In this document: positions 17,230-25,452 of the stretch, piece by piece
Layout: the number at the start of each line of letters is the position of its first letter
Numbering within the stretch: the first letter of the stretch is position 1
Assembly: GCF_019218295.1 (NCBI RefSeq)
Contig: NZ_JAHUZF010000007.1
Coordinates: forward strand, 204,411-268,410
DNA length: 64,000 bases
From: Maritimibacter sp. DP1N21-5
Lineage (GTDB): Bacteria > Pseudomonadota > Alphaproteobacteria > Rhodobacterales > Rhodobacteraceae
Direction: 5' to 3'
Translations under genes and position numbers: made by a program
Notes under the pieces: model-generated
What the model was told of the DNA's origin: nothing
Seen by the model: only the letters and a program-made list of their open reading frames with translations
The model's database searches: none

Positions 17230-17786
17230 ACTGTGCCTCCTTTCACGGGTGTCGTGCCGGCCGGGGCGGAGGGTCCGCCGTGGCCGGTCGCTTGCGTGGT
17301 TGGCGCGGGAGAGCTCTGCCGATCACGGTAGCCGGAGGGAGTCCCTCCCGACCTTGGCGAGCGGTCCCCCGAGGCCTTGGCGAAGCGCGTAGCCGCAAAG
17401 CCGATCAGCGCGGCACTTCCGAGAAAGATCATCGGATTGCGTCTGGCGAAGTCATTGACGGCGCCGACCATCTCTCCCAGGTCCTTGTCTCGCACCGCGT
17501 CCGACGCATCCGCGAGCGAGTCCGCGATCTGGCTGAAGGTGCGCTCCTGCGGCGACCCGCTCCGCAACTCGTCTGCCGCGGTCCTGAGGGCGGATGCGAC
17601 GTCCTTGACCTCGTCTGCCGCAGACACCTTGGCTTGACCCGCGTAGGTTTGCGCATCGCTGGCGACCGACCGCGCCAGGTTCTGGGCCTGCTCCTTGGTG
17701 GCATCGGAGACCGACGCGGCGGTCTCCTTGGCGTCCTGGGTGATCGAGGTGTCGGTGTCTGGTTTTCCTTTGTGTTCGGGCATCAT
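17226..17786 (-). CDS. YqjD/ElaB-like, nutrient-deprivation-induced type protein
   Basis: 186 residues: a long Ala/Asp/Ser-rich helical N-terminal region (TKEQAQNLARSVASDAQTYA), one membrane segment preceded by NDFARRNPMIFLGSAALIGF near residue 115, and a Gly/Ser/Pro-rich tail. The pattern is that of proteins often labelled nutrient-deprivation-induced and resembles YqjD-type inner-membrane proteins. AGGAGG seven bases before the first of two adjacent ATGs decides the start. It is 33 bp downstream of the 22-residue peptide gene and overlaps the holin-like gene by 4 bp. Confidence 0.75.
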   Translation of the reverse strand: MMPEHKGKPDTDTSITQDAKETAASVSDATKEQAQNLARSVASDAQTYAGQAKVSAADEVKDVASALRTAADELRSGSPQERTFSQIADSLADASDAVRDKDLGEMVGAVNDFARRNPMIFLGSAALIGFAATRFAKASGDRSPRSGGTPSGYRDRQSSPAPTTQATGHGGPSAPAGTTPVKGGTV

Positions 17787-17924: not shown

Positions 17925-17949
17925 AACTCGTCTCGCTTGCGGGGGTTCC
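17925..17949 (-). promoter_or_regulatory. EcfG-type general stress promoter
   Basis: On the minus strand GGAAC (17949-17945) is followed after 16 bp by AGTT (17928-17925), one mismatch from GGAAC-N16/17-CGTT. It lies 37 bp before the 22-residue peptide gene and would drive that gene, the YqjD-like, holin-like and DUF3618 genes and perhaps yihY. Confidence 0.7.
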
Positions 17950-18012: not shown

Positions 18013-18501
18013 TCACGCAGCCGCGTCGACGTTGCGGGAACGTTCCGCCAGTTCGGTCATGAAGTCGTCGGATTCGTAGATGTGGTCGAGCGCCTCGTCG
18101 AGCTTGCGCCTGGCGTCATCTTCTCCAAGCGCCTCGGCAAACGCCTTGGTCGTGCCGAAGCCTGCGATGCCGTAGTGACACATCCGCTGGTATTGCGCGA
18201 TGATCGCCACGTCGAGCGCCGCACCGCTTATGTCACTGTCGAGCGCATGCTTGCGAGCCTCTTTCACCAGGCCCTCCATGCCTTTGCAGTGGTCTTTCTT
18301 CACCTCTGCATCGGCGTCTTCCAGAAGGGACTTGAGAAGGCGCGTGTGCTTGTCGATCCCGTCCTTGGCCGAGCTCAACCGGTCCGACAACTTCTTGTCC
18401 GAGGCCTTGTCGGCCATCGCAGACACCACTTGGGACATCTGGTCGTTGGCAGACCAGAGATCCTGGAGTTCTTCCACGTAAAGGTCTTTCAGCGTCGTCA
18501 T
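18013..18501 (-). CDS. DUF892 (YciE/YciF) ferritin-like protein
   Basis: 162-residue four-helix-bundle protein. The opening TLKDLYVEELQDLWSANDQM and the later QYQRMCHYGIAGFGTTKAFAEALGEDDA carry the Glu/His residues expected of the ferritin-like diiron site. YciF-type proteins respond to stress in enterics; the reaction is not established. AAGGAG precedes the ATG, whose first bases overlap the stop of the upstream glycosyltransferase (ATGA), so it is the last gene of that chain. Confidence 0.88.
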   Translation of the reverse strand: MTTLKDLYVEELQDLWSANDQMSQVVSAMADKASDKKLSDRLSSAKDGIDKHTRLLKSLLEDADAEVKKDHCKGMEGLVKEARKHALDSDISGAALDVAIIAQYQRMCHYGIAGFGTTKAFAEALGEDDARRKLDEALDHIYESDDFMTELAERSRNVDAAA

Positions 18502-19616
18502 CTTGGGCTCCTTTCAGGGTCGGCGGTGCCGACGGTTGGTTTGAGGATCGCGACAGACGTGCCGGGGAATGTATCCCGACGCGTCTGGGGTCGGGGGTCA
18601 GCGGGGACAGTCGCCGACCCCCACTCCGGCGCTTCGCTGTCTCGGACAGACTGGGACAGCGTCGCAGCCGGAGCGTCCGGAGCGGGGATCAACCACTCCG
18701 AATTCCGGTAGGTCTTCAGCATTTCGATATGGCGGGGCAGGTCGCACACCTTGATCCGAAAGCGTGTCGGCACGAGTGGCGGCCAGGGACCCAGTGTCTC
18801 GGTGTACGCCCGTCGGGTCAGCCAATCGGCTGGTGGCAGGCAATCGTCGATCAGGTAGTCGGCCTGCCCGATGCGGGCCCTCAGCGCGTCCGACATTCCC
18901 CCGGCGGCGCGTCCGGACAACCGGCAGGACACCTGCACCGTGACGTCGTCGGCATGGCGCACCTTGCACCCCAGCCCGCGCAACGTGCGGACGATCCGCC
19001 GGTCTTCGCCGCATTTGATCGGGGCGAAGCCTCCGGCGGCGACAAAGGCGTCCCGTGTGAAGGCCAGACTTGCACCGGCCGCCTCGCCGTGGGTCCCGGC
19101 AAGATCCGCGCAACCCGGGACATGTCGCGCATAGAAGTCCTGAACCAGTCGACGATAGAGACCTTCCAGCGCCCCGAGGTGCCGGTCCATGGCAGCGAGA
19201 ATGCCCGCTTCTCTGGCCATCGGTTCGATCTTGCCGCAGACCGCATCCACCGCTTTCAGATGCGCAATGGTCCGGCTGATCCAGTGTTTGTCGACGATGC
19301 CATCTGCGTCCGTGGTGAACAGGTATCGCAGCGCGGGCAAGCTGCGCAGTGCATGGTCGCAGCCAATCCGGCGGGCCGTGCCGACCCCTTCCTGCGCGCC
19401 AAGGCGGAGGCTCAGGACGGTCAGGTCGAGCCCCAACTGCCCGGCGGCGTCCCGCGCCACGTCCTCGGTCCGGTCGGTGGTGTTGTTGACCACCAGGATC
19501 ACCGCGACCCTTCCCGGGCATTGACCCGCGAGGGCGGCGAGGCAAGCCGCGATCCGCTCTTCCTCGTTCCGGGCGGGGATGACGACGGCGATGTCAGGGG
19601 CAGTGACAGGTTTCAT
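18498..19616 (-). CDS. Family 2 glycosyltransferase (cytosolic)
   Basis: 372 residues with the GT-A fold nucleotide-sugar site: VVIPARNEEERIAACLAALA at the N-terminus and the DxD-like TTDADGIVDKHW near residue 100. EAAGASLAFTRDAFVAAGGF and GEDRRIVRTL form the acceptor region. The last ~60 residues are Pro/Ser/Ala-rich and may be poorly structured; they read through what would otherwise be leader for the DUF892 gene. Overlaps of 4 bp on both sides tie it to the methyltransferase and DUF892 genes. The donor and acceptor are unknown. Confidence 0.85.
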   Translation of the reverse strand: MKPVTAPDIAVVIPARNEEERIAACLAALAGQCPGRVAVILVVNNTTDRTEDVARDAAGQLGLDLTVLSLRLGAQEGVGTARRIGCDHALRSLPALRYLFTTDADGIVDKHWISRTIAHLKAVDAVCGKIEPMAREAGILAAMDRHLGALEGLYRRLVQDFYARHVPGCADLAGTHGEAAGASLAFTRDAFVAAGGFAPIKCGEDRRIVRTLRGLGCKVRHADDVTVQVSCRLSGRAAGGMSDALRARIGQADYLIDDCLPPADWLTRRAYTETLGPWPPLVPTRFRIKVCDLPRHIEMLKTYRNSEWLIPAPDAPAATLSQSVRDSEAPEWGSATVPADPRPQTRRDTFPGTSVAILKPTVGTADPERSPR

Positions 19617-20176
19617 GATCCCTCCTTCGGCAATCCCCGGTCGATCCGATAACCCTCGGTTTGCGTGACAGGCATGATCGCGTGTGTGGTGAGAGCGGCG
19701 GAGAACAACGCCAGCGCCTCCTCGCCCTGAATGTCGTGACCGGTCTCTCCCAGCCAGGTGACGCAGAGAACCTCTGCGCGCGGCCAGGACGTGGCGATCT
19801 CGCGGGCGAGGGTCCGCAGGCTTCGACCGTCGAGGAAATAGAGGATTTCGGACAGGACCAGCAGATCGAAGTCGCCTGCGGGCAGTGCGCAGGGATAAAA
19901 CCCTTGTACGAACCGCGCGTCCGGCACCGTGCGCCGCGCGGCCGAGATAGCGATACCCACGGCATCCATCCCGGCATAGCGGCTACAAAGCGGCGCGAGG
20001 ATCCGCGCAAGCTGTCCGTTCCCGCAGCCAAGCTCGAACGCGGAGGCATAGGCTCTGCGCGAGAGTGCCGCCCGCGTGGCCGCGAACTTGGCCTGCTCGT
20101 AACCGCTGTGCTCGAAGTTCCACGGGTCCGAGGTCCCGGCATAAAGCGCGGTAAGGTGATCCCGGTCGACCCCCAT
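19613..20176 (-). CDS. NodS-like SAM-dependent N-methyltransferase
   Basis: 187 residues. The start ALYAGTSDPWNFEHSGYEQAK is the NodS-family entry motif, followed by the SAM site AFELGCGNGQLARILAPLC and FDLLVLSEILYFLDG. NodS N-methylates the deacetylated glucosamine of Nod factors; here it directly follows a PIG-L deacetylase, which could expose such an amine. The start codon overlaps the upstream stop (TGATG). No nod genes are present, so the substrate is a different sugar product; the amine-methylation idea is inference from neighbours. Confidence 0.83.
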   Translation of the reverse strand: MGVDRDHLTALYAGTSDPWNFEHSGYEQAKFAATRAALSRRAYASAFELGCGNGQLARILAPLCSRYAGMDAVGIAISAARRTVPDARFVQGFYPCALPAGDFDLLVLSEILYFLDGRSLRTLAREIATSWPRAEVLCVTWLGETGHDIQGEEALALFSAALTTHAIMPVTQTEGYRIDRGLPKEGS

Positions 20177-20877
20177 CACGCCATCTTCCAGAAGATCTCG
20201 TCTTCTTGGGCGAACCTCTCCGTGAAGCCGGCCGGAAGGACAAACCCGGAAGGATCGTCTGCCACGACCAGTCCCATTTGCGACCGATGCGCCCGAATCG
20301 CCGCCTGTTTTCGGGGAAGGTGCCGACCCGGCGGCAGGAAGACCGGCCTTTGACGAGCAATTTTTCGGGCGAAGTCGGGATCGTCCCAACGCCACCAGAC
20401 CGGATAGGCGTAGAACCTCCAGTCCGGTCGGCGTGACCGGAGCGCCGACGCGAAGCGGGCCGTGGCGCGGTGGTCCTCGTGGTGATCTTCCGGGGCGGGC
20501 GCAAAGATGTGCCGCGCCCCCACGTCTTCGATCAGCGCTTCCAGACGCGCGGCCATCTCCTGCGGATTGGCCCGACAAAGCCCGCCGTCCTCCATGCCAA
20601 GCCACGTCAGGGCATCGCGGGACCCGCCCAGACAGGCGATGGCACGGTCCATCTCCGAACGCCGAAGGGCGGCAAGCCGCGCGCGCGGCCATCCGTGCGA
20701 GCCGGGATGGCTTGCCCCGCCATCGGTCAGGCAGACGACATGCGCGCCAGCCCCCTCGAAGGCACGTGCCAGCAGTCCCCCGCAGCCGAGCGACTCGTCA
20801 TCCGGGTGCGGGGCGAGGACGACGAGCCTTTCGCGCCCTTGAAACACGGCATCGTCCGGGCGGAGGGTAATCGTCAT
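20176..20877 (-). CDS. PIG-L family deacetylase
   Basis: 233-residue zinc-dependent N-acetylglucosamine-type deacetylase. The metal-binding signature LAPHPDDESLGCGG lies near residue 20, and the second motif is PEDHHEDHRAT with the third ligand His. The family includes GlcNAc-PI, mycothiol-precursor and antibiotic-pseudoaglycone deacetylases. Start overlaps the acyl-CoA-dehydrogenase-like stop by 4 bp. With the downstream NodS-like enzyme it suggests deacetylation then methylation of an amino sugar. Confidence 0.88.
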   Translation of the reverse strand: MTITLRPDDAVFQGRERLVVLAPHPDDESLGCGGLLARAFEGAGAHVVCLTDGGASHPGSHGWPRARLAALRRSEMDRAIACLGGSRDALTWLGMEDGGLCRANPQEMAARLEALIEDVGARHIFAPAPEDHHEDHRATARFASALRSRRPDWRFYAYPVWWRWDDPDFARKIARQRPVFLPPGRHLPRKQAAIRAHRSQMGLVVADDPSGFVLPAGFTERFAQEDEIFWKMA

Positions 20878-21874
20878 CCGAACACCCCCCATGGCTGGTC
20901 GTTGAGGAGCGCATGACTTGCCGCGCGCTGCACGAAGGCATCGCGCGCGACCTGACGCAGGTAGACCGCCAGGTCGCGCGCCTTTCGCCCGGTATCCGAG
21001 CCGGCCTCGAAATGCCGCAGCCCGATGCTTTGCTCGACGGCGCGAATGGCGTCGAGCCCGACCTCTTCGGTGAACAGGCGGGCCGAGATGGCGGTGGCCA
21101 CGACGCCTTCGACCGGCACCGTCGGGTCCGCTGGGGCCTGCGCCGCACGTTCGGTCAGCGCCGCACCAGCCCAGGCCCGCATCAGCACATTCATCAGCCG
21201 GGTCTGTTGTGCCTGGGCCTCCAGTCGGCCCATGGCCCGAAGCGCGCCGACCGCACAGTCCAGAAGGCCGATGGCGCCGCCCACCTGCAAAGCTGCGATG
21301 CGCCAGACACCCCCGACGAAATGCGGCTCGCGCAGGTAATCGCCTGCCCCGCCGACCCATCGGATGTCCTGCACCGCGATGCCGGCGAAATCATAGCACC
21401 CAGATTGCGTGGCCTTCATGCCCTGCACGGTCCAGCAGGAGGAATCGGCCCGGTCATGATGGGTCACGTCGACAAGGGCGAGGCGCACTCCCGTTTCGGT
21501 GTCTACCGTGACCAAAGCACGGCTCACGGCGCCAAGTCCCGAAGCAAAGCGTTCCATTGGTTCACATCTCGCTTCAAGGATGGGGTGCCATAGAGACGGA
21601 TCAGCCGCAGGGCGTTGATGTGCCCCTCCCAAAGTCGTCCGGCGCTGAGGTTCGCCGCACCCACCTGCATGAGCGCCGATGCGGTCCTTACCGGGTCCGC
21701 GCTGCCGTCCTCCCGCAGCAGACCGGCCTGAAAAAGGAAATCGATCGAACGTGCGATGGGTTGCTCGCCCCGGTCCTCGGGACCGGCGGCAGCCGACAGG
21801 CGATCCTTGACCCAGGAAGGGACCGGACCGCCGATGTCCGGTATCACGGCGGCTGGAAGATGCGGCGCTCTCAT
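20874..21874 (-). pseudogene. Acyl-CoA dehydrogenase-like gene, split by frameshift
   Basis: The first part (21874-21524, 116 aa; SWVKDRLSAAAGPE, LWEGHINALRLIRLYGTP) and second part (open from 21632 to 20874; ERFASGLGAVSRALVTVDT, FVGGVWRIAALQVGGAIG, EQSIGLRHFEAGSD) look like two halves of one flavin-type acyl-CoA dehydrogenase but lie in different frames. The join near 21555 also seems to lack about 25 residues normally found between these motifs, so a small deletion plus frameshift is likely. An internal ATG at 21557 could still yield the C-terminal part. Relatives accompany PIG-L/NodS/GT2 genes, so loss would affect the pathway. A sequencing error cannot be excluded. Confidence 0.7.
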
Positions 21875-22920
21875 GATTGCACCTCGAGATGGTCTTGAAC
21901 GGCGACGGCGGAGCTCAGAAGATCCGCCCATTTCTGCGCAACGGATGACAGGCGAAAGGCGGGATTGGAGCGCACCCGCGGTGCCGTGCGCCGCCACGCC
22001 TGGATGCGGGCGAGGATCTGGGCCGGATCATGTCCGTCTACGTGCTGATTCCGGTCCGCCACGATTTCCGCATTCGCCCCCAGAGCGCCATGCACGAGGA
22101 CAGGTGTTCCGACGGCGTTCGCCTCGGCAAGGATGAGCCCGAAGGTCTCGGCAAAGGTGGTCTGCGGATAGAAGAGGCAGAGGGCGCGGCGCAGATGCTC
22201 CATCAGCGCCGGATGCGACAGCGCGCCGAGAAATGTCACACCTTCCGGCACCGGCCCGCATTCCCATCGCAAATAGCCGGGATCTGCGACGGCGAGGGTA
22301 AGGTCCGGCACTTGCGCACGCAAAGTCGCGAACTGGGCGAAAACCTCGGCCAGCCCCTTGTGTGGCGAGCTTGCGAACAGGAGCCGACAAGGATCGCGCG
22401 GCGTGCCGTCGGGCTGGAGGGCATCGTTCAGCGGGTTGTAGATCACCACGGAGCGAGGCATCGCGGCGGCGTTCAGAAACGTCTCGAGATACCTTTCATG
22501 GGTCAGCGAGACGCAGATGACCGTGATGCCGGCCTCTTTCAACGCCGTCCCCATCTTTCGGTTGTGGCGGCCGGGATAGACATGCAGCCACAGGAACACC
22601 GCCGTGCCGGGGTATCGCCGGCGAAGGGCAACCGCCACTTTCCAGCGGTTGATCACCACCAGCGCGTCGAAATCGCCTGTCGGACCCCGGTCACCAAGTG
22701 GGCAAAGCCGACCGGCGATCGACCGTTGCTCGACACTGCGGCCGTGCTGGAAATGCGTGATGTCGAACGACGCCCCGAGCGCCGCCGAGATGCGCAGAAC
22801 GGTCGCCTCCGTGCCGCCAAGCCCGCCGGCCTCGATATCGGGCAGGTCATAGCCCGCAGCACTACAGGGGTCGACGATGGCGACATGCGGACGATCGGCG
22901 AAGTGGCGAATGGGCCTCAT
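21871..22920 (-). CDS. Family 4 glycosyltransferase
   Basis: 349 residues, GT-B fold. The N-terminal acceptor domain has AGGLGGTEATVLRISAAL; the C-terminal donor domain has LLFASSPHKGLAEVF and the ExFGLxxxE motif as AETFGLILAEANAVGTPVL. This is a retaining GT4-type arrangement. It sits in the middle of the overlapping chain (4-bp overlaps on each side). Sugar specificity cannot be inferred. Confidence 0.87.
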   Translation of the reverse strand: MRPIRHFADRPHVAIVDPCSAAGYDLPDIEAGGLGGTEATVLRISAALGASFDITHFQHGRSVEQRSIAGRLCPLGDRGPTGDFDALVVINRWKVAVALRRRYPGTAVFLWLHVYPGRHNRKMGTALKEAGITVICVSLTHERYLETFLNAAAMPRSVVIYNPLNDALQPDGTPRDPCRLLFASSPHKGLAEVFAQFATLRAQVPDLTLAVADPGYLRWECGPVPEGVTFLGALSHPALMEHLRRALCLFYPQTTFAETFGLILAEANAVGTPVLVHGALGANAEIVADRNQHVDGHDPAQILARIQAWRRTAPRVRSNPAFRLSSVAQKWADLLSSAVAVQDHLEVQS

Positions 22921-23885
22921 TGCGCGGCCACCCGGTCCGAGGTTTCGGCTGTCAGGATGTTGTCGACCCGGGCAAGGGTCTCAGGCGACGCCGGCATGTC
23001 GCGCCGCTGTAGCCATTCGGGGCGGCTGACCTGACGGACCTCGAGCGCCGGACAATCGACCGGCACCGGCTCCACCCGTCCGCTGTGCCGCCAATCCTCG
23101 ACCTTTTGCCAGACCCTCTGCCGGTCCGCACGGCGACGTTCACTGACATAGTCCGAGACCGGCGACTGGGTCAGGCTATCGGGCGTCTCGATCTTGGTCA
23201 AAAGCAGCTCCGGCACGATCCAGATGACTTCGCCATTCAGGATCAGTCGATTGCGAAGCTCGCGGTCTTCTTCGACGCAATCCTCGAACCCGCCGAGACG
23301 ACGAAATACATCGGTCCGGAAGAGCCCCGAATTGATATGTGTCCATTCCCCGGGCACCTCTGCGCCCATCTGGAGGTTGGGAAACACGTCATCCAGAAGC
23401 GACAGGTCGCGCCGGATCTCCACCCGTCGTCCGTCGGGCAAAATCAGCTCGTGATGGGTGAGCACCACGCTTACCGTGAGGTTTTGGCCGGCCTCTTTGT
23501 TCGCGAGGGGCCAGTTCAGGCAACCGTCCGCGCGAACGTCCTGCGCGCTCAGCCGGCGCACCTGATGCAAGACCTTGTCGCGATGCGGAATGTCATCGGA
23601 ATCGTGGAAGGTCACTGCGTCGCCGGCGGTCAGCAGAAGGCCCGCGTTCTTGGCCTGCGCCGTGCCGAGGTTGTGCGCGAGGCGTATGTAATTGAACTTC
23701 GGATGCGCGAAGAAGGGTTCCACCACCCGCGCCGTGGCATCGGTGCTCGCGTCGTCGATGACATGGACGCGACTGTTCCACCAGCTTTGCACGAGCGCCG
23801 CCCGGATGGCGCCCTCGATCAGATGCGCGCGGTTGAAGGTCGGAATGATGATGTCCACGCAGGGGGCGAGAGGACCCGAGATCAT
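22917..23885 (-). CDS. Family 2 glycosyltransferase
   Basis: 322 residues. The GT-A nucleotide site is VDIIIPTFNRAHLIEGAIRA and VIDDASTDATARV; the metal motif is TFHDSDDIPHRD near residue 92, with GGFEDCVEEDRELRNRL as acceptor or catalytic region. No transmembrane helices. The start ATG at 23885 overlaps the stop of the upstream membrane GT2 by 4 bp; longer in-frame extensions run antisense to that gene and are not real. Confidence 0.85.
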   Translation of the reverse strand: MISGPLAPCVDIIIPTFNRAHLIEGAIRAALVQSWWNSRVHVIDDASTDATARVVEPFFAHPKFNYIRLAHNLGTAQAKNAGLLLTAGDAVTFHDSDDIPHRDKVLHQVRRLSAQDVRADGCLNWPLANKEAGQNLTVSVVLTHHELILPDGRRVEIRRDLSLLDDVFPNLQMGAEVPGEWTHINSGLFRTDVFRRLGGFEDCVEEDRELRNRLILNGEVIWIVPELLLTKIETPDSLTQSPVSDYVSERRRADRQRVWQKVEDWRHSGRVEPVPVDCPALEVRQVSRPEWLQRRDMPASPETLARVDNILTAETSDRVAAQ

Positions 23886-25342
23886 GCCATGGCCTCCCGT
23901 CCGAGCAGCAGGACGGCCTGCCGATAGCCGCGCAAACTTCGGAAGGTCAGCATCGCCGCAGGCAACGGCAGCATCAGCGCACCGAGCGCCGCGAGAATGA
24001 GCGGATTTGTCGGATGCGCGACGATGAAGAGGACGGCGGCGGCGAGGAAGGGCAGCCAGGGACAGACCGAGAAGTTTCTCGCTGCCGCGTCCTTCAGGCC
24101 GGACTTGTCGGTCACGACGAACGTCAGCCGGCTGCCCGCCAGCGCATCGAATGTGGCCTTGGCCGATTGAGGCGCCAGCGCGATGCGACAGGCGAGGGCC
24201 CGTGCCAGGACGCCCGGAGGCAGCCCGTCCCGCAAGCCCCGGGCCAACACGCGGATCACGATATCGCAAAGGCTCAGAACGATGGCACAGGCGGCCAGCG
24301 TCGAAGCAGTGCTGTCCGCGCGCCCTGTCAGAAGCCATGCGCCCAAGAGCATGGCCGGGATGAGGGCCAGGTTGAACCAGGCGGTCAACTGCGACAGGAC
24401 GACGAGACGTTTGTGAAGGCTGAGTGCGCCCGTCCGCGTGAAGATCGTCGCAGCATGGGTCATGAGTGTCTGGAAATTCCCGCTGCACCAGCGATACCGC
24501 TGCCGCTCCAGATCGCGCAGCGAAAGCGGCAAGAGCCCCTTGCCGACCACCTGATTGATGAACCGTCCAGAATACCCGCCTTTACAAAGCCGAACGCCAA
24601 GTTCCGCGTCCTCGGTCGTGGTGCTCCCGGACCATCCGCCCGCTGCGGTCAGGGCGTCCCGCGAAATGACGCACAGCGTTCCCGTCAGCAAAACCGCCTC
24701 TGCCACATCCGCCCGTGCGGCTTTGGTTCGGAAGTATTCCTCGAGTTCGGCATTGATCCCAGGCGCGGCCAGCGTTGCGTCGCTATAGGACTGCGGAAAC
24801 TGGACATAGTCCGCGCCGGTACGGTGAAGTGCGGCGGCCGCCCGTCGCAGGAAATCCCGGGTCACGACATAATCTGCGTCCACGGTGACGATGTGACTGG
24901 CGCGCGGGTCCGTTTGCTCCAGAGCTATGGTCAGCGCGCCGGCTTTGGCCCCGGAAACGCCCATGCGAAGCAGGAACCTGATCCGACCCGGGTAGGCGGA
25001 GCAGAACCGCTCTACCGGCCGCCAGAGCGCATCGTCGGCGGTGTTGTTGTCCATCACGATGATCTCGTAGCGCGACTCCGGCCAATCCTGATCCAGCAGC
25101 CCGCGCAGGGTGTCGATAACGACCCGCGGGGGTTCCGAATGGGTCGCCACATGGACCGAGAACCAGGGGTCAGCGGACTCTCGCGCAGACATCGAAAGCC
25201 GCGCGGGCACACAGGCAAGAAGCGGCCGAAGCGCCATCAGGGCGATCTGAATGACCACCAGAGCTACACAGATAAGGGCACCGAAGGTCGGCAAGACGGC
25301 CGCGAGAATCACAAGTCCCAAAGCCGTGAAAAGCCGTAGCAT
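23882..25342 (-). CDS. Membrane processive family 2 glycosyltransferase
   Basis: 486 residues with two N-terminal helices (FTALGLVILAAVLPTFGALI), a cytosolic GT2 domain and several C-terminal helices. The processive D-D-D-QxxRW set is visible: MDNNTADD, TVDADYVVTRDFL, STTTEDAELGVRL and RQRYRWCSGNFQ. This places it with cellulose/hyaluronan-synthase-like inverting enzymes that polymerise and export sugars. It is the first gene of the overlapping chain; the ribosome site (GGAG directly before ATG) is weakly spaced. An EcfG-type promoter lies about 85 bp upstream. Confidence 0.88.
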   Translation of the reverse strand: MLRLFTALGLVILAAVLPTFGALICVALVVIQIALMALRPLLACVPARLSMSARESADPWFSVHVATHSEPPRVVIDTLRGLLDQDWPESRYEIIVMDNNTADDALWRPVERFCSAYPGRIRFLLRMGVSGAKAGALTIALEQTDPRASHIVTVDADYVVTRDFLRRAAAALHRTGADYVQFPQSYSDATLAAPGINAELEEYFRTKAARADVAEAVLLTGTLCVISRDALTAAGGWSGSTTTEDAELGVRLCKGGYSGRFINQVVGKGLLPLSLRDLERQRYRWCSGNFQTLMTHAATIFTRTGALSLHKRLVVLSQLTAWFNLALIPAMLLGAWLLTGRADSTASTLAACAIVLSLCDIVIRVLARGLRDGLPPGVLARALACRIALAPQSAKATFDALAGSRLTFVVTDKSGLKDAAARNFSVCPWLPFLAAAVLFIVAHPTNPLILAALGALMLPLPAAMLTFRSLRGYRQAVLLLGREAMA

Positions 25343-25426
25343 CTCCGTTCGCCCCCGAGCGTCAATAAGCGAAATTCGCTGTTTTATTTCAACAGCTTAC
25401 GATTCACTCTCCGCTGTCGGTGGGGC

Positions 25427-25452
25427 AACGCGACGGGCTGCCATATGGTTCC
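25427..25452 (-). promoter_or_regulatory. EcfG-type general stress promoter of the glycosyltransferase operon
   Basis: On the minus strand GGAAC (25452-25448), 17 bp, then CGTT (25430-25427): an exact match to the EcfG consensus. It is the only candidate promoter I see in the 200-bp gap upstream of the eight-gene chain. Confidence 0.78.

Follow-up and report, generated by a model that had tools for sequence, protein, structure and literature searches.

Which product could be made by an operon that places glycosyltransferases, a deacetylase, a NodS-like methyltransferase and a flavoprotein behind a putative stress promoter? The question is raised by the minus strand of a 64,000-nucleotide stretch of Maritimibacter sp. 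DP1N21-5 (Rhodobacteraceae; contig NZ_JAHUZF010000007.1, positions 204,411 to 268,410; the whole stretch is called the window here), where eight tightly packed units, g1 to g8, run from 25342 to 18013. On balance, the locus is best read as a general-stress (EcfG-type) operon built around a conserved cassette that would make a modified amino-sugar glycoconjugate. By sequence comparison, the core of the cassette comprises four genes, encoding a flavoprotein resembling acyl-CoA dehydrogenases (ACAD), a PIG-L deacetylase, a NodS-family methyltransferase (MT) and a glycosyltransferase of family GT2. The cassette is real and conserved, and no description of it was found in the open-access literature searched; that no paper on the gene set stands among the matches listed is a weak negative, with subscription papers outside its scope. 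The features are as follows.

25427 to 25452, minus strand: EcfG-type promoter (GGAAC-N17-CGTT), about 85 bp upstream of the start of g1
23882 to 25342, minus strand: g1, membrane GT2 of 486 aa (Pfam PF13632), processive type with TED and QRYRW motifs
22917 to 23885, minus strand: g2, GT2 of 322 aa (Pfam PF00535)
21871 to 22920, minus strand: g3, family GT4 glycosyltransferase of 349 aa (Pfam PF00534)
20874 to 21874, minus strand: g4, broken gene of the ACAD-fold flavoprotein (open reading frame structure and alignment to relatives)
20176 to 20877, minus strand: g5, PIG-L deacetylase of 233 aa (Pfam PF02585), metal-site motifs intact
19613 to 20176, minus strand: g6, NodS-family MT (PF05401), ATG start at 20176, GTG alternative at 20179
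18498 to 19616, minus strand: g7, core-cassette GT2 of 372 aa (Pfam PF00535)
18013 to 18501, minus strand: g8, accessory DUF892 ferritin-like protein of 162 aa (Pfam PF05974)

The original prediction of eight same-strand genes overlapping by 1-4 bp is borne out by the frame coordinates: g1/g2, g2/g3, g3/g4, g4/g5, g6/g7 and g7/g8 share 4-bp start/stop overlaps, and g5/g6 overlap by 1 bp with the ATG start or by 4 bp with the GTG start. The family labels then given agree with Pfam for g1-g3 and g5-g8, but not for g4 as a single open gene, all other units (7 of 8) being open frames.

Conservation and spread of the cassette

Among 295 genomes in the family, 19 match a profile of four intact ACAD homologues at E<=0.001; 18 score at least 125 bits, and the nineteenth (G273), at 26 bits, is not counted among the 18. 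A broader ACAD profile reaches at least 285 bits in 5 of 289 genomes of a class sample, where the next other genome scores 75, and at least 89 bits in 34 of 398 genomes of a phylum sample, where the others stay at or below 71. A protein scan with PIG-L recovered four relatives, all with cassette neighbours, one of which (L002) is without g1 and g2. Profile hidden Markov models were then applied to 53 non-redundant loci (L036 and L139-L144 lie outside the 53, and L096, on the same contig as L004, was left out of the counts), with the MT found in 52, PIG-L in 49, both in 48 and the GT2 in 46, the ACAD and PIG-L counts being biased, since the relatives were found by one or the other. By these profile matches, the pair most constantly present is PIG-L with the NodS-family MT, and the order ACAD-PIG-L-MT is kept in 47 of the 53 loci, with the GT2 located downstream, upstream or in convergent orientation. 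Genes g1-g3 accompany the core in eight loci, all from Rhodobacterales, which constitute the seven-gene form. The DUF892 protein occurs in only four of these eight and lies outside the core, so that its earlier inclusion in the pathway has been dropped and g8 is rejected as a pathway enzyme.

The control set of ordinary ACADs (50-71 bits) comprises 25 loci, none with a partner profile match within about 1.5 kb on each side. Moreover, a reciprocal search finds the cassette-type MT in 18 of 295 family genomes at 159 bits or more (next score, 97), and 17 of these 18 also carry the ACAD. One genome (G272) has the MT and a partial PIG-L at a contig end, and in another (G205) a partial ACAD match and a PIG-L gene occur with no cassette-type MT. 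The gene order and the reciprocal search thus confirm the co-conservation by which the prediction was to be judged, and co-function of the cassette genes is well supported.

Annotated plasmid records hold ACAD-PIG-L-MT in Paracoccus, Sulfitobacter, Jiella, Bradyrhizobium, Komagataeibacter, Sphingomonas, Deinococcus, Pandoraea, Acinetobacter ursingii, Kitasatospora and Comamonas, and the named copies reach Gamma- and Betaproteobacteria, Deinococcus and one actinomycete. A glycosyltransferase is annotated beside most plasmid cassettes and beside none in D. radiodurans (where a helicase gene separates PIG-L from the MT), Pandoraea and Kitasatospora. Exceptions to the cassette are Methylobacterium sp. 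FF17, with the ACAD alone, and Cupriavidus basilensis, with PIG-L about 3 kb away. Harmless strains that can be cultured also carry intact copies; Paracoccus sediminicola and Loktanella atrilutea have the complete seven-gene operon, and Sulfitobacter sp. D7 has the four-gene form. Within the genus, the operon was found in one of eight genomes, this one, by a DNA search that divergent copies could escape; taken with the copies on plasmids, this result suggests that the cassette has spread horizontally. At the DNA level, one ACAD homologue has no match in E. coli genomes, and two peptide patterns recover no relative in viral contigs. In Acinetobacter (L140, L143), the A. ursingii cassette lies on a plasmid with a catalase gene and otsAB, and an ACAD relative also occurs in A. 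baumannii records of 4 Mb that are labelled 'plasmid' and resemble chromosomes.

The many plasmid copies beside other stress genes, and the seven genomes of the genus in which the DNA search did not find the operon, would also fit genes that are merely neighbours in mobile stress islands and form no single pathway. This explanation is very improbable: across phyla, ACAD, PIG-L and MT remain closely joined in one order, in contrast to the other stress genes, which vary, and the cassette-type MT is hardly ever found outside the cassette.

The EcfG-type promoter

Both boxes of the promoter before g1 are identical to the EcfG consensus in the available part of PMC7083833, where the spacer is N16, and similar sites are tabulated in the accessible portion of PMC6599016. 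The loose form of the pattern (spacer 14-20) is rarer in the genome than its reversed control (626 against 789 occurrences), so that the pattern alone is no evidence, and the genome-wide count was rejected as such; the evidence for the promoter is its conserved position in relatives. Relatives were scanned for spacers of 15-18 with C or T before GTT, leaving out L125, L126 and L134 (irregular layout) as well as L036 and L139-L144. In seven of the eight seven-gene loci (the exception is L004), a site lies 93-107 bp upstream of the g1 start as matched by the profile, and the spacer sequences differ among these seven. In Alphaproteobacteria as a whole, 13 of 32 loci have a site within a 370-bp window, against 0.33 expected from the rate elsewhere in the same loci, including 6 of the 24 loci without g1-g3. 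None of the 18 other loci (2 from Deinococcus, 16 from other classes of Pseudomonadota) has one, as expected if the site serves EcfG, which the abstract of PMC3892343 describes as exclusive to Alphaproteobacteria.

Conservation of the promoter, GGAAC-N16/17-CGTT upstream of the operon and of its relatives, is therefore well supported, in agreement with the original prediction, and the cassette is apparently under control of the general stress response. The boxes and their conserved position are shared with alphaproteobacterial EcfG regulons; the cassette is not recognisable in the portions available of the regulon papers PMC6599016 and PMC7083833, and the terms 'acyl-CoA' and 'deacetylase' are absent from those of PMC8982409 and PMC8084333. 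The phylum-spanning gene order and the EcfG wiring in many Alphaproteobacteria, together with trehalose, alpha-glucan, catalase or DNA-repair genes next to a good share of the other copies, point to a sugar chemistry that is linked to stress and widespread. Two NepR anti-sigma-factor genes are present in the genome (G000:C3:87013-87117 and G000:C6:193083-193175), hence possibly two general-stress modules. A putative second EcfG-like site, the imperfect GGAAC-N16-AGTT, lies on the minus strand at 17925-17949 of the window, upstream of an open reading frame starting at 17786.

Proposed cassette chemistry and competing products

From the enzyme families we infer the substrate, the product and the order of the reactions. 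The core GT2 would put an N-acetylated amino sugar onto an acceptor, PIG-L would take the acetyl group off, the ACAD-fold flavoprotein, without a dehydrogenase base, would oxidise the amino sugar thus exposed, acting most probably as a monooxygenase or oxidase, and the NodS-family enzyme would methylate it; in the seven-gene form of Rhodobacterales, the processive membrane GT2, the second GT2 and the GT4 would add an oligo- or polysaccharide context.

PIG-L carries PHPDDE and D.H.DH, which we take to be the metal-site motifs of its family; in the 14 sequences the metal-site residues do not vary, apart from a nearly invariant Pro25, and the closest solved relatives are TT1542 and diacetylchitobiose deacetylases. 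In the MT, DPW and the following Glu are invariant (16 of 16), and the closest solved structure is the uncharacterised methyltransferase 4isc, followed by NodS (3ofj). Both proteins fit amino-sugar conjugates as substrates and prove none. Two loci with glgX and treY have an additional PIG-L gene after the cassette (L124:3808-4569, L120:9525-10232).

The Nod factor pathway likewise combines a GT2, a deacetylase and an MT of the Pfam NodS family, but here PIG-L stands in place of NodB's family, and the ACAD-fold flavoprotein and the stress promoter are added. The MT passes the Pfam NodS threshold (48 against 24) and scores 49.6 bits against the NCBIfam NodS cut-off of 300, while g1 and g2 score 30.4 and 43.3 bits against the NodC cut-off of 550 (best in the genome, 126.5); a NodA search of the genome gave no match, and its control likewise matched nowhere. 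Filing the cassette under Nod is thus rejected on the NodC and NodS cut-offs. What stands of the predicted parallel is a PIG-L with intact metal motifs beside a Pfam-NodS MT, whereas membership of the Nod pathway is not supported, so that 'NodB-NodS-like' may describe how the cassette works, not what it belongs to. As in BcsA/PgaC-type polysaccharide synthases, g1 has DAD, TED and QRYRW together with several hydrophobic segments, and cellulose synthases are its closest solved relatives; the QxxRW motif is present, but scores of 91.8 against 699 bits for CelA and 52.9 against 422 for PgaC lead to rejection of a cellulose or poly-N-acetylglucosamine synthase.

The flavoprotein family has the ACAD superfamily fold. 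Pfam is nearly silent on the close homologues, so that the identity rests on divergent members, which match Pfam ACAD models, on the fold and on the profile. In sequence alignment, Gln occupies the position of the catalytic Glu of acyl-CoA dehydrogenases, which we take to lie in the YEGT region, in 59 of 59 relatives, and Gly219 occupies the alternative base site in 59 of 59, leaving no Glu at either presumed base position. A canonical acyl-CoA dehydrogenase is therefore probably not encoded, and the missing Glu predicts oxidation of an amino sugar, not dehydrogenation of an acyl chain. Group D flavin monooxygenases, including the sugar N-oxygenases KijD3 and DnmZ, share the fold, are among the best profile and Foldseek matches, and have no catalytic Glu in the 5gj7/5z8t alignment, as in the cassette flavoprotein, although identity is only about 15-20% and the gene context differs. 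The fold comparison leaves the two activities unseparated: Foldseek, like the sequence profile, ranks group D monooxygenases first, and VIA, a second aligner, puts dehydrogenases slightly above them. This ranking, the ACAD fold and the Pfam matches of divergent members would favour a true acyl dehydrogenase acting on the acyl chain of a glycolipid with a deacetylated, methylated amino sugar, which is nevertheless improbable given the Gln and Gly219 at the base positions and a core without an acyltransferase. In D. radiodurans (L031:6546-8885), a protein of 779 aa carries the ACAD as its C-terminal half, and its N-terminal 400 residues have a weak GH53 match only (E 0.054).

A more specific form of the amino-sugar reading, in which PIG-L frees the amine, the flavoenzyme N-oxygenates it and the NodS-family MT methylates the product, all under stress induction, is doubtful. 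If true, a glycolipid, polysaccharide or trehalose-type solute would bear a redox-active (hydroxylamine, nitrone or nitroso) sugar that would serve Proteobacteria, Deinococcus and actinomycetes alike as a protectant.

The neighbourhoods of the cassette bear on whether its product is a glycoconjugate at all. Among 59 loci (window excluded; genes called by a GC-position score, with some antisense frames remaining), 23 have at least one of otsA, otsB, glgX, treY, katE, ligD, ku, DUF421 and DUF892 and 36 have none in the fetched stretch, in raw counts with no random-stretch baseline. Trehalose or alpha-glucan genes are near 9 of the 24 loci from other Pseudomonadota, and on a Comamonas endophytica plasmid (L144:4577-9545) otsA-ACAD-PIG-L-MT-GT-otsB share a strand, which suggests a link with trehalose synthesis. 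The core cassette could accordingly make a soluble small molecule, such as an amino-sugar compatible solute, a modified trehalose-like disaccharide or a cofactor, with three more glycosyltransferases grafted on in the seven-gene form. The four-gene form stands alone in Sulfitobacter, and PIG-L enzymes also serve thiol cofactors, in keeping with the BshB2 match. Mycothiol and bacillithiol biosynthesis share a GT4 and PIG-L with the operon; thiol pathways use GT4, but the core glycosyltransferase is a GT2, and a GT4 is found here only in the seven-gene form and in L002. Scores of 25.5 against 462.5 bits for MshA, 20 against 224 for MshB and 54.2 against 195 for BshB, all below the cut-offs, as for BshB1 and BshB2, lead to rejection of these pathways. 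A small-molecule product is a possibility to be taken seriously, yet an unlikely one, and the glycoconjugate is preferred.

The broken flavoprotein gene and minor observations

In this genome, g4 is open from 21874 to 21524 (116 aa) and continues in another frame from 21557 to 20874 (227 aa). Against four relatives, a net internal deletion of 91 nt has taken out the conserved GVWGADG region and altered the reading frame, so the single open ACAD-like gene previously described is not there, and neither half scores in Pfam or NCBIfam. The gene was probably intact once, as the 4-bp overlaps of its start with g3 and of its stop with g5 are kept. With the flavoprotein gene broken, the pathway in this genome is probably truncated or decaying, and the lesion may be an assembly fault. 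Further decayed copies occur elsewhere (L103, L027, L028, L157): G288 has a second cassette with a split PIG-L and without the MT, as well as an ACAD in two frames, and the MT of G150 has one stop. Lastly, a Crp/Fnr-type gene adjoins the operon in the window and also lies near the cassette in 10 of the 59 loci.

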